Shown in pieces: positions 27,924 to 33,044 of a DNA stretch of 64,000 nucleotides. The position numbers were made by a program, and so were the translations under genes. The notes beneath the pieces were generated by a model that saw only the letters and a program-made list of their open reading frames with translations, ran no database searches and had not been told where the DNA came from. Source of the stretch: Siderastrea siderea (Eukaryota; Cnidaria; Anthozoa; Scleractinia; Rhizangiidae); contig OZ034975.1 of the NCBI GenBank assembly GCA_964030785.1, positions 46,154,569 to 46,218,568 of the forward strand, given 5' to 3'. Numbering within the stretch: position 1 is the first letter of the stretch; the number at the start of each line of letters is the position of its first letter.

Positions 27924-28786
27924 TTGTTGTTTAAACCAGTTCTCTATGGCACTTTCCTTTAGCGAGGCATCTTGATCTTAATACTGCAGACGAAAGCCCA
28001 AATATTCTGCAAGGAAACATAAAAACATATTTTGCTATTGAAATATGCCACACAAGAACTAGAAGTAAAGGGTTTAAGTTGCGTTTTAAGTTTCCCTAGA
28101 TTTTTCGAGGGGGAGGGGGGGGGGGTTGGGGGAGGTTGGTTTGGAGTGATTGCAGAATACCCTGCAACTTCCATAGGACGTGAGGTAAAAAAAAGTAGGC
28201 ACCATTGTTACTCAATGAGATGCTAATGAACTGCAGGGTATTCTGGGTCTTACTTTGGGTGGAAGACACAGAATTTGCAAAACAATTAAGGTATTGTATT
28301 CTTTATTGTACAGTAGTATGGAGCTCCATTTCCGCCAAAATTCGATGTTTATATTTGACATTCGACTTGTTGCATTTTATGCTATATTATACAAGGCGTC
28401 ATTCAACTTTGTTGATTTCTGGTTCAACCTTTCCCATTGCAAATGGTACTTTACGTTTTTGACATTCAACATCACGAATTTGGCATGCTAAATTGACGAT
28501 TTCTCCTCTTTCTTATAAGAATGTCAACCATGGGCATTTAACTTTCGAAGTTTCGTTTTCAACACCCTAGATTACGTCTCGATTTTGATACTACGACGTT
28601 GCGACATCCAACTTCTTGTATTCGGCTTCGTTTGATATCCTTCCGCAATCCAACAAGGGAAAACATCGCGGGCGCAGCTAGCCCCCGCCCCCTCCCCAAG
28701 GTGGAAGTTGGCAACAATCCCTCCAGTAGAGTGGAGTAGCGAGAATTTACCCTACCCCATGACGGTCAAATGTTTGTCGTTTCAAC

Positions 28787-29708
28787 ATGGCGGAAGGAAC
28801 GAAGTAAACGCTGTTCTAAACCATTTTGTGTAATTTCTGCAATGACTACAGAATGAAGTAAGTAACCATTTGTTTTTCTTATATATTGTGCTTACCTGCA
28901 TCGCCATATTTATAGATAAAGTAATTTTTTTATGATTGAATACGTCTTTGACCTTGTTGCGTTCGATGTTTACTAATACCGTGTTATTTACTCTTATCCG
29001 TCTCTTGTCATCCTCGTTCCTTTTGGATTTTTGGTATCTATTTCGTATTTTTTTGAAGCAAAGCATTATTCTTAGGTTTTAAGGCAATAGTATGTTGCAA
29101 GTTTAAAAAAGACTCAAAATGTTACGTTGCTATTCTTGTATGTAACGGGAGACTATGTAAAATTCCCAGGCCAAAACATCCGAATTAAGAAATTTTCCTT
29201 TCCTTAATAATATGTAAATATCATTAATGAGCTTAACAGGTTACTGGTGGGCTCCTGGTATTATTGAATAAATTATATGTGTGCTTCAGTCAACAGATGT
29301 CAGCTGACATACCCTATTTGTGTGATGCTATAACAGATATCATAAGGGATCTTGACAGATTTGAAGCGACGGGGGTTCCATCAAATGACCTTCAGCCTTT
29401 AATCAGTAAACTTGATTTTGTGCAAAGAATAGCTGTTACCCTGGATGTGGATGAAGTGGTTACAGAGTATGTTGGGTCTGCCTACAGGAAGTTAGTCGAG
29501 AGTGAACAAAGTAATCAATTGCAAGCTGGATACCAAGCTCCATTGAACTGTAGTGGAGGACGAGGAAGACCGTCTTTTGAAATAAGTGAGGAGCAGCTAC
29601 AATTTTTGCTTGAACAAGGTTTTCAAGTAAAGGACATAAGTAGCATTCTTGGGGTTAGTTGCAGGACTGTCGCGAGGAGGATGTCAAGCTTTGGCTTGAG
29701 TGTATCAG
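28787..29708 (+). CDS. left arm: 5' exons of a transposase/integrase-type HTH protein
   Basis: Exon 1 (28787-28803, ATG GCG GAA GGA ACG AA) joins exon 2 (29290-29708) in frame, giving MAEGTNQQMSADIPYL and about 145 residues up to the donor at 29709. Near the end are GGRGRPSFEISEEQLQFLLE and a helix-turn-helix-like stretch (FQVKDISSILGVSCRTVARR, then FGLSVS). This N-terminal layout (GRP-x-F/Y-x-I-x-x-E-Q-L plus HTH) is what I recall from animal proteins that continue into an integrase-core domain; no such domain follows here. Only the 5' part of the gene is present, so a full product is unlikely. Confidence 0.6.
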
Positions 29709-30572
29709 GTACTAAACTGTACATGTGCAAGTGTACAACATTGACAATTCATGTAAAATGTTATTGTCACACTGTCAGCCCAGTCAAAATGTTTGTTAGT
29801 AGTTGGCAAGATGCCTGGAGTAGTAGGCAGCAGGAGTCAAAGCCTTTTCACCAATGACTGCTGTGCCTTGCATACAAGGGAGATCCGCAGACATGCTCCC
29901 TGAAAAATGTTGAAAATATTTGCTTCAAATAACTCTAGTGCATTTTGGAGGGATAAAATCAGCTTCTATTTTATAGCTTTTAAATAACACTTATGAAGAG
30001 CATTTTTTCAAATCCCAGTTGTTTTCCACTAGAAGGTTTAGGCAAGTACCATTACTTGCTAACAATGTAAATTTAAAAAAATGTATATATAAAATTATAA
30101 ACGATCATCGCTTAGTGCGTGAAACTCGAGTTACAATTACTTTCTATCTTTAAATTTGTATTTAACTCTGCATATTCATGCATAGAGCACTCCTAGGATA
30201 AGTGAAACAATCTCTTCATTGTTTATTCGTTTATAATTTTATATATACATTTTTAATAAAAATTAATTTAAAAAAAATAGAATAAATAAAAAAATAAATA
30301 AATAAAATAAAATAGAAGCTGATTTTATCCCCCCAAAATGCACTAGACTTATTTGAAGCAAATATTTTCAACATTTTTCGGGGAGCATGTCTGCGGATCT
30401 CCCTTGTACGCAAGGCACAGCAGTCATTGGTGAAAAGGCTTTGACTCCTGCTGCCTACTACTCCAGGCATCTTGCCAACTACTTACAAACATTTTGACTG
30501 GGCTGACAGTGTGACAATAACATTTTACATGAATTGTCAATGTTGTACACTTGCACATGTACAGTTTAGTAC

Positions 30573-32420
30573 CTGTTACACTCAAGCCAAAGCTTGACAT
30601 CCTCCTCTCGACAGTCCTGCAACTAACCCCAAGAATGCTACTTATGTCCTTTACTTGAAAACCTTGTTCAAGCAAAAATTGTAGCTGCTCCTCACTTATT
30701 TCAAAAGACGGTCTTCCTCGTCCTCCACTACAGTTCAATGGAGCTTGGTATCCAGCTTGCAATTGATTACTTTGTTCACTCTCGACTAACTTCCTGTAGG
30801 CAGACCCAACATACTCTGTAACCACTTCATCCACATCCAGGGTAACAGCTATTCTTTGCACAAAATCAAGTTTACTGATTAAAGGCTGAAGGTCATTTGA
30901 TGGACCCCCGTCGCTTCAAATCTGTCAAGATCCCTTATGATATCTGTTATAGCATCACACAAATAGGGTATGTCAGCTGACATCTGTTGACTGAAGCACA
31001 CATATAATTTATTCAATAATACCAGGAGCCCACCAGTAACCTGTTAAGCTCATTAATGATATTTACATATTATTAAGGAAAGGAAAATTTCTTAATTCGG
31101 ATGTTTTGGCCTGGGAATTTTACATAGTCTCTCGTTACATACAAGAATAGCAACGTAACATTTTGAGTCTTTTTTAAACTTGCAACATACTATTGCCTTA
31201 AGACCTAAGAATAATGCTTTGCTTCAAAAAAATACGAAATAGATACCAAAAATCCAAAAGGAACGAGGATGACAAGAGACGGATAAGAGTAATGCATCAG
31301 TCAATTCCAGCTGCGCCCATCCCCCCCCCGGGCAACTGCGGGGCATTTGCGTGCCTTGTCAGTCCCGGGGGTGGGGCATTAGCAAATTTGGCACGGCCCG
31401 GGGGTCGGGCATTTGCCTACCCCCGGGCTTTTGACACACACGTGGTTTCCGACTCGAAATCCAAACATGAAGGATTTTATCGCAAAGGACCAGCAGTTCG
31501 TCGCAGATTGGATCGTCTGTTAAGGACTGGACAAACTTGTAGAGGTTTTCTCGATTTTATGCATTTCTTCATTGCTTATCAAGGCACAACTATCACTTAA
31601 TATAGCGAGATCGGGAACGATCAACGTGAATCGACGTACGCATTCTTCTTAAGGATTTAAATAAAATTTAGCCGCGATGATTCTTAAATTCTAAACATGT
31701 GTATAGGGATCGTCGTTTTATACTTTTGCATATTATTAAAATATTACAACAGATGACGTTACAACAGACTTTTATAATGTCAAGATTTTTGTTTACTAGC
31801 GAACTGTTTAAAACAAAACATTAAAGTAACAATCAACTATCAGGTAGTATTGTTGTCTGTGAAGTATTAAAATATCATCATTTGGCATTTATACTAACTT
31901 TATAAACATCGGATAGTGCCGTTACAAACAATAGAAGACGGAGAGGTAGGCCTACAGAAATGAAAAATCACACATAAAAATGCTGAAAGTGGTATTATTG
32001 TGCAGTGAATGAAAACTGCTGCAGTGTTGATTGGGGACGTACGATCCCGGGGGCCGGGCATTTGCCCTCTTCCTTCGTCCACACCGCAGGGCATTTGGCA
32101 GCTAAAGTGTCCCCACCCCCGGGAATTTGCCATCCGAGAGAAAAAAAATGCTAATGCTCGGGGGTTAGCCCGGGAGGGGGGGGGGGGCATGGGCGCAGCT
32201 GGAATTGACTGATGCATAAATAACACGGTATTAGTAAACATCGAACGCAACAAGGTCAAAGACGTATTCAATCATAAAAAAATTAATTTATCTATAAATA
32301 TGTCAATGCAGGTAAGCACAATATATAAGAAAAACAAATGGTTACTTACTTCATTCTGTAGTCATTGCAGAAATTACACAAAATGGTTTAGAACAGCGTT
32401 TACTTCGTTCCTTCCGCCAT
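30573..32420 (-). pseudogene. right arm: inverted, frameshifted copy of the HTH protein exons
   Basis: Mirror of the left-arm gene: exon 1 at 32404-32420, exon 2 at 30573-30990, same splice sites. One T is missing relative to the left copy at about 30905 (GGGGGTCCATC against GGGGGTTCCATC), which shifts the frame. A few substitutions occur elsewhere (for example VERRM against VARRM). Its intron 1 holds the 924-bp Harbinger-like insertion. Confidence 0.8.
31293..32216. mobile_element. Harbinger-like non-autonomous element with TAA duplication
   Basis: Ends TGCATCAGTCAATTCCAGCT on both strands are near-perfect for about 28 bp. It is flanked by TAA at 31290-31292 and 32217-32219; the left arm of the palindrome shows the empty site GAGTAAATAAC. 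A 3-bp TAA duplication fits PIF/Harbinger. Inner ends repeat GGGCATTTGC and CCCGGG words in inverted arrangement; there is no transposase ORF. Confidence 0.85.
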
Positions 32421-33044
32421 GTTGAAACGACAAACATTTGACCGTCATGGGGTAGGGTAAATTCTCGCTACTCCACTCTACTGGAGGGATTGTTGCCAAC
32501 TTCCACCTTGGGGAGGGGGCGGGGGCTAGCTGCGCCCGCGATGTTATCCCTTGTTGGATTGCGGAAGGATGTCAAACGAAGCCGAATAGAAGAAGTTGGA
32601 TGTCGCAACGTCGTAGTATCAAAATCGAGACGTAATCTAAGGTGTTGAAAACGAAACTTCGAAAGTTAAATGCCCATGGTTGACATTCTTATAAGAAAGA
32701 GGAGAAATCGTCAATTTAGCATGCCAAATTCGTAATGTTGAATGTCAAAAACGTAAAGTACCATTTGCAATGGGAAAGGTTGAGCCAGAAATCAACAAAG
32801 TTGAATGACGCCTTGTATAATATAGCATAAAATACAACAAGTCGAATGTCAAATATAAACATCGAATTTTGGCGGAAATGGAGCTCCATACCAGTAGGGT
32901 ATTCTTTTGCCCTGTTCATGTTTCGAGTTTTTGTGTTTATTGTTTTGCAAATTCTGTGTCTTCAGCTGCCTGATTTCTGCAATCCTACCGTTGGTCTATC
33001 TCGCTCTGAAAACCTCGCAATTTTTCCTTTGTTTCTTAAGCATT

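Follow-up and report, generated by a model that had tools for sequence, protein, structure and literature searches.

What is a stretch of coral DNA that carries the 5′ end of a transposase gene twice, in two nearly identical copies facing each other? The locus lies in a 64,000-nucleotide (nt) stretch of the Siderastrea siderea genome (assembly GCA_964030785.1, contig OZ034975.1, positions 46,154,569 to 46,218,568 of the forward strand; hereafter "the window", to which all coordinates refer unless a copy is named), where an earlier note made from the letters alone had described a giant inverted duplication. Our analysis indicates that it is very probably a single insertion of a foldback-type DNA transposon that is non-autonomous and present in many copies, that descends from an IS3EU-like element, and that owes its origin to an inverted duplication and its movement to a transposase acting in trans.

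Arms, ends and recurrence of the palindrome

Self-BLAST and alignments showed the inverted duplication to be real: two facing arms (28317–29974 and 32890–30307) are 98.85% identical over 1,657 aligned columns, with 19 substitutions. Together they form a 4,574-bp palindrome made of two inverted copies of the transposase gene 5′ end, each arm including a terminus, the promoter region, an exon coding for a helix-turn-helix (HTH) and part of intron 2 (Table 1). The innermost part is a perfect 28-bp inverted repeat (30077–30104 and 30227–30254), which leaves a loop of 122 bp between the arms, close to the 128-bp spacer given in the earlier note. The limits given there (28262 and 32967) proved too wide, the element's own ends being 28317 and 32890: unrelated sequence lies between the arms and the outer 25-bp inverted repeat, which none of the other fetched loci was found to have and which therefore belongs to the target site. 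The right arm does have the one-base deletion previously seen (opposite 29376), and additionally a 927-bp insertion, i.e., a 924-bp element plus a 3-bp TAA duplication. The left copy had been described as open and correctly spliced; its HTH frame is indeed open, but position 128, Glu in the arm consensus and in the complete gene, is Ala here, a change shared with copies L038 and L039 only. A first exon encoding MAEGT could not be established, as its donor (GTAAAC, 28804) is rivalled by a better-looking GTAAGT at 28858.

A search of the host genome (830.9 Mb, 402 contigs) with the left arm returned at least 43 matches, many of them in facing pairs (a lower bound, with 40 of 60 candidates scored). 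Nineteen regions were fetched, among which 14 loci, including the window, are palindromes with both ends. All 14 start with TATGGAGCTCCA and 13 end with TGGAGCTCCATA, L038 having lost one base at its right end (GGAGCTCATA). Every one begins with TATGG and finishes with ATA, and 13 read TATGG..CCATA. Exact 6-bp direct repeats abut the ends at ten of these loci, while two others (the window and L041) have the 6 bp with one extra C on the right. A canonical copy, L040, measures 3,698 bp; its arms of 1,788 bp are 99.55% identical and flank the 122-bp loop. When the 500-bp flanks of the 18 end-bearing regions were compared, only L048 and L054 shared one; L054/L055 has the left flank of L048 (99.6%) and is not a separate insertion. 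L051/L052, a single copy that is interrupted and whose 8-bp repeat is displaced, stands outside the 14. In the window-type copies L038 and L051/L052, additional bases separate the terminus from a displaced target repeat, unlike in the ten exact ones.

Elements of the IS3EU superfamily are described as having TA..TA termini and 6-bp duplications (PMC10045372, PMC12730594), with TAYGG..CCRTA given for one fungal set (PMC12730594). The TA..TA ends and 6-bp duplications of the palindromes correspond to these hallmarks and point to the same superfamily. They also combine what characterizes foldback-type elements, namely long near-identical inverted arms, a short centre and mobility as a unit. The foldback transposon suggested in the earlier note is thus borne out by an inverted form that recurs with fixed ends and target-site duplications. 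The two termini of the palindrome are identical, each being the 5′ end of the transposase gene, so that a transposase provided in trans could mobilize it as a whole by cutting and insertion, with the 6-bp duplications left behind. Most likely, the palindrome does nothing for its host and survives by parasitizing the transposase of its own family.

Movement as a unit can also be read from the arms. The 924-bp element sits at one and the same site in eight palindrome copies, and the arms of the window, L038 and L039 (plus the one arm read of L051) fall into separate left-arm and right-arm clades (ultrafast bootstrap 99 each), which together show that an asymmetric palindrome moved as a whole. 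A separate copy of this 924-bp element (L041:6815–7738) bears a TTA duplication, suggestive of a PIF/Harbinger-like type.

The parent gene and a possible birth of the inverted form

The product of exon 2 gave weak HTH matches, below threshold, and had 62 relatives in the protein database, two of them from another cnidarian (Paramuricea clavata), in a search that could not return long proteins. Searched again within a longer whole query, it led to six proteins, including P0064 (468 aa) and two Porites lobata proteins, with rva_4 integrase cores. P0064 matches the IS481 (E 2e-13) and IS3 (E 9e-9) transposase profiles, both below the curated cut-offs, and has a D-D-36-E triad. Sequence searches of PDB yielded five matches for the HTH, all of them weak (best E 0.0096), and nothing for P0064 at E 0.01, and two protein scans of viral contigs gave no relative of the HTH exon. 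Seven stretches of the viral contigs matching the 16-base terminus pattern were taken as chance.

One fetched locus, L049 on contig C14, shares the 5′ end and the arm with the palindromes (its identity to the two L040 arms is 97.8% and 98.0% over positions 1–1776 of the gene copy) and continues into four further coding exons. Its five segments (exons 2–6) contain no stops and align exon by exon to P0064 at 66–89% identity, with GT-AG borders set by eye. Together with the related proteins, this gene copy bears out the "integrase-type gene" of the earlier note, and the alignment to P0064 suggests that the palindromes descend from a gene for an IS3/IS481-like DDE transposase. The palindrome arm stops in intron 2 of this gene. 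An integrase C-terminus in the stretch after exon 2 had been considered, and was dropped, since the resemblance was weak (E 0.16 in tblastn) and this stretch falls within intron 2 in the C14 gene. A DNA search with exons 3–6 of the C14 gene found no second copy (all 32 candidates scored, with common words skipped), the next best matches being two sister copies at 81–88% (on C2 and at 18.97 Mb of C14). The wider integrase family is large in the host genome, with at least 92 matches in a protein search (91 of 990 first-look candidates scored). These relatives match in one stretch on many contigs, the listed open frames being 231–618 aa long and some containing stops, and groups of near-equal scores suggest recent amplification.

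The centre of the palindromes offers a hint at how the inverted form arose. The 122-bp loop is 98.4–100% identical in 14 of the 16 regions examined, and lacking in L050 (truncated there) and in the gene copy, whose C14 locus does not contain the loop repeat. A search with the L040 centre returned palindrome centres and, in at least 23 further places, the loop part alone (40 of 209 candidates scored). Two of these free-standing copies (L061 and L062) were read; both are hairpin-forming repeats lying between (TA)n tracts. A (TA)n tract also directly follows the inner edge of the arm in the C14 gene. Probably, then, a hairpin-forming repeat inserted into the intron 2 (TA)n tract of an ancestor, and fold-back synthesis during repair or replication, or recombination at the hairpin, copied the 5′ half of the gene in inverse to give the palindrome. 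By eye, the junction shares about three bases with the end of the loop repeat, which lends weak support to this model.

Alternative readings and comparison with known systems

Several observations weigh against a trans-mobilized IS3EU derivative. Two of the 14 two-ended loci have no abutting duplication, the repeat of L038 being displaced and that of L039 unconvincing. On the side of the parent, a search reaching 9,638 bp from the 5′ end of the C14 gene (under a rule of CCRTA plus duplication) revealed no 3′ terminus accompanied by a matching duplication, and the sister copies, identical to each other over 391 bp, part after ..TTATTAA rather than CCRTA, so that an intact autonomous element is not demonstrated. 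As for candidates, a CTCCATA at 5,692–5,698 of the C14 gene was set aside for having no duplication. Lastly, the best match of an arm is its own partner for only nine of 28 arms and another arm for 19, so that any conversion between arms would be partial at best.

Such partial conversion is nevertheless suggested by the identity patterns. Within a locus, arms are on average 99.32% identical, a value reached by none of 10,000 random pairings of 28 arms (14 loci with two arms), and identical arms occur at two loci. Across all copies, no site splits the two arm classes (identities 98.97, 98.99 and 98.91%; 29 palindromic arms and the arm of the gene copy, leaving out the L052, L054, L055 and L056 pieces). 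The arms of one copy would then often have been made alike after its birth, as discussed for Galileo (PMC3573991). The same greater likeness within than between loci, and the lack of a site separating the arm classes, could also be expected if every palindrome had formed separately at its own locus from single 5′-half insertions. We give this very little credence, as the loop is nearly identical across the regions, eight copies have one insertion at one site, and a single arm was seen among the fetched loci in the gene copy only, the broken fragments L054/L055 and L056 aside. Less credible still is an assembly artefact, which the earlier note had raised as collapsed haplotypes and which could equally be a head-to-head joining of haplotypes or of a fold-back read. 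Assemblies are known to be prone to error at large palindromes, but the flanks on both sides are different, a target-site duplication is present, the insertion is in one arm only, the same form recurs at 13 other two-ended loci, and flanks are shared only between L048 and L054 among the 18 regions compared. This makes an artefact very unlikely indeed.

A function of the palindrome has to be considered as well, in particular in light of Mu killer, a MuDR derivative of maize. There too, both ends come from the transposase-side terminus and enclose an inverted partial transposase gene (PMC3440606), an anatomy that the coral palindromes share. Transcripts could accordingly fold into a long hairpin and be diced to small interfering RNAs (siRNAs) silencing the transposase gene of the family, in line with the siRNA/piRNA source proposed in the earlier note. 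This would be an added function compatible with a foldback transposon, although we consider it unlikely. In its favour, the central 1,298 nt of a canonical copy are predicted to form a structure of -1,125 kcal/mol in which 587 of 624 pairs link one arm to the other. Transcripts of foldback transposons have been proposed as siRNA precursors in the tree shrew. Only one copy of C14 exons 3–6 was found at that identity vs. at least 14 palindromes. If this reading were pushed further, palindromes parasitizing the transposase and spreading via their two gene 5′ ends would shut the parent gene down through hairpin transcripts, giving many palindromes and a single gene copy, with arm-to-arm conversion keeping the hairpin nearly perfect; we find such a self-spreading silencer just as doubtful. 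Long complementary arms are expected in any foldback element, the stem of the window copy is broken by 927 bp, and its AATAAA words (seven on the + strand between the left promoter and the right arm, and one on the - strand), which resemble poly(A) signals, could end transcripts before the hairpin, which weighs mildly against a hairpin-RNA role. Mu killer is moreover described as one dominant locus able to silence MuDR (PMC3440606), whereas the coral palindromes form a family of many copies that shows target-site duplications, occurs in an animal and belongs to another superfamily.

Alternatively, the arms could repress transposition by encoding a short HTH-only protein able to bind transposon ends. 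The HTH frame of the left arm is open, 18 of the 28 arms keeping exon 2 have no detected lesion (the second arm of L048 lacks this exon), and changed sites are somewhat fewer in exon 2 than in the rest of the arm (6.2 vs. 8.9 per 100 bp, p 0.10). Intact frames are, however, expected of young copies, and exon 2 is broken in the ten other arms (insertions relative to the reference left out). The 20 non-synonymous and 6 synonymous events in the HTH exons do not depart from the 2.88:1 ratio expected without selection (p 0.70), i.e., no clear sign of selection on a protein, and we hold such a repressor to be highly improbable.

Returning to the foldback transposon, long inverted-arm derivatives are already known, with Galileo and Mu killer as examples, and the "new foldback transposon type" of the earlier note is better described as a new foldback family than as a new kind of element. 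Two-TIR copies (TIR, terminal inverted repeat) of Galileo, a P-superfamily element of Drosophila, are likewise non-autonomous and consist almost wholly of long inverted arms, which recruit adjoining internal sequence and are 98–100% identical within a copy, with recombination proposed as the cause (PMC3573991). The longest of the arms described there measure ~1.26 kb, and what they recruit comes from outside the part that codes for the transposase (PMC3573991), whereas the coral arms span 1.79 kb including promoter region and HTH exon. IS3EU and GingerRoot elements share the TA..TA termini and 6-bp duplications (PMC10045372, PMC12730594), as well as the IS3/IS481-like DDE protein found here in the relative of the source gene, and no palindromic IS3EU form with two 5′ ends was found in the openly licensed literature searched (including PMC8268682). 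Long inverted arms and a short centre also recall the Foldback (FB) elements of Drosophila. The arms of FB elements are built of tandem repeats, unlike those of the window copy, where Tandem Repeats Finder (run on 28000–33100) reported only the A-rich stretch 30270–30312.

The coral palindromes illustrate how the promoter region and HTH exon of a transposase can be drawn into the inverted ends of the transposon itself, here in an animal and outside the superfamilies to which Galileo and Mu killer belong. The intermediates at hand (a gene copy with (TA)n in intron 2, a free-standing loop repeat, symmetric and asymmetric palindromes) are enough to propose a mechanism of birth. If hairpin RNAs are made, the family would provide a ready natural setting in which to ask, as Mu killer has prompted, whether a parent family is extinguished by its palindromic derivatives.

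Feature coordinates and neighbouring sequences

Table 1. Coordinates of the palindromic element and its parts in the window.
Feature	Position	Strand	Remark
Palindromic non-autonomous DNA transposon (probable), whole element, 4,574 bp	28317–32890	.	Arms and termini; same termini in 12 of 13 other two-ended loci, one lacking a base at the right end
Left target-site duplication, CAGTAG	28311–28316	+	
Right target-site duplication, CAGTAG	32892–32897	+	One extra C at 32891
Left arm, IS3EU-like transposase gene 5′ end up to intron 2, 1,788 bp	28317–30104	+	
Right arm, inverted	30227–32890	-	Carries the 927-bp insertion
Divergent A-rich inner part of right arm	30255–30306		
Terminus TATGGAGCTCCATTTCC	28317–28333	+	Fits IS3EU TAYGG..CCRTA
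Same terminus TATGGAGCTCCATTTCC, other end	32874–32890	-	
Exon 2, HTH-coding, left arm	29290–29708	+	Open frame; donor GT at 29709
Exon 2, right arm	30573–30990	-	1-base deletion
Loop, 122 bp	30105–30226	.	Independent interspersed repeat; two free-standing copies within (TA)n tracts
Inserted element, 924 bp	31293–32216	.	Terminal inverted repeats; TAA target duplication 31290–31292 / 32217–32219; same site in 8 palindrome copies
Seven AATAAA words	30255–30311	+	Between left promoter and right arm
25-bp inverted repeat of target site, left half	28262–28286	+	Outside the element
25-bp inverted repeat of target site, right half	32939–32963	-	

Other repeats were seen in the window, i.e., a direct repeat in several pieces to the right of the palindrome (33127–34727 and 36656–38486, about 84–85% identity) and an inverted pair at 91.8% identity (21893–22710 and 56273–57078). 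The window also contains a reverse transcriptase (RVT_1) open frame on the - strand (51203–52324), a tRNA-like match barely above the Rfam threshold (7214–7286, 31.9 bits), and a receptor gene whose best named relative comes from the coral Stylophora pistillata (61%).

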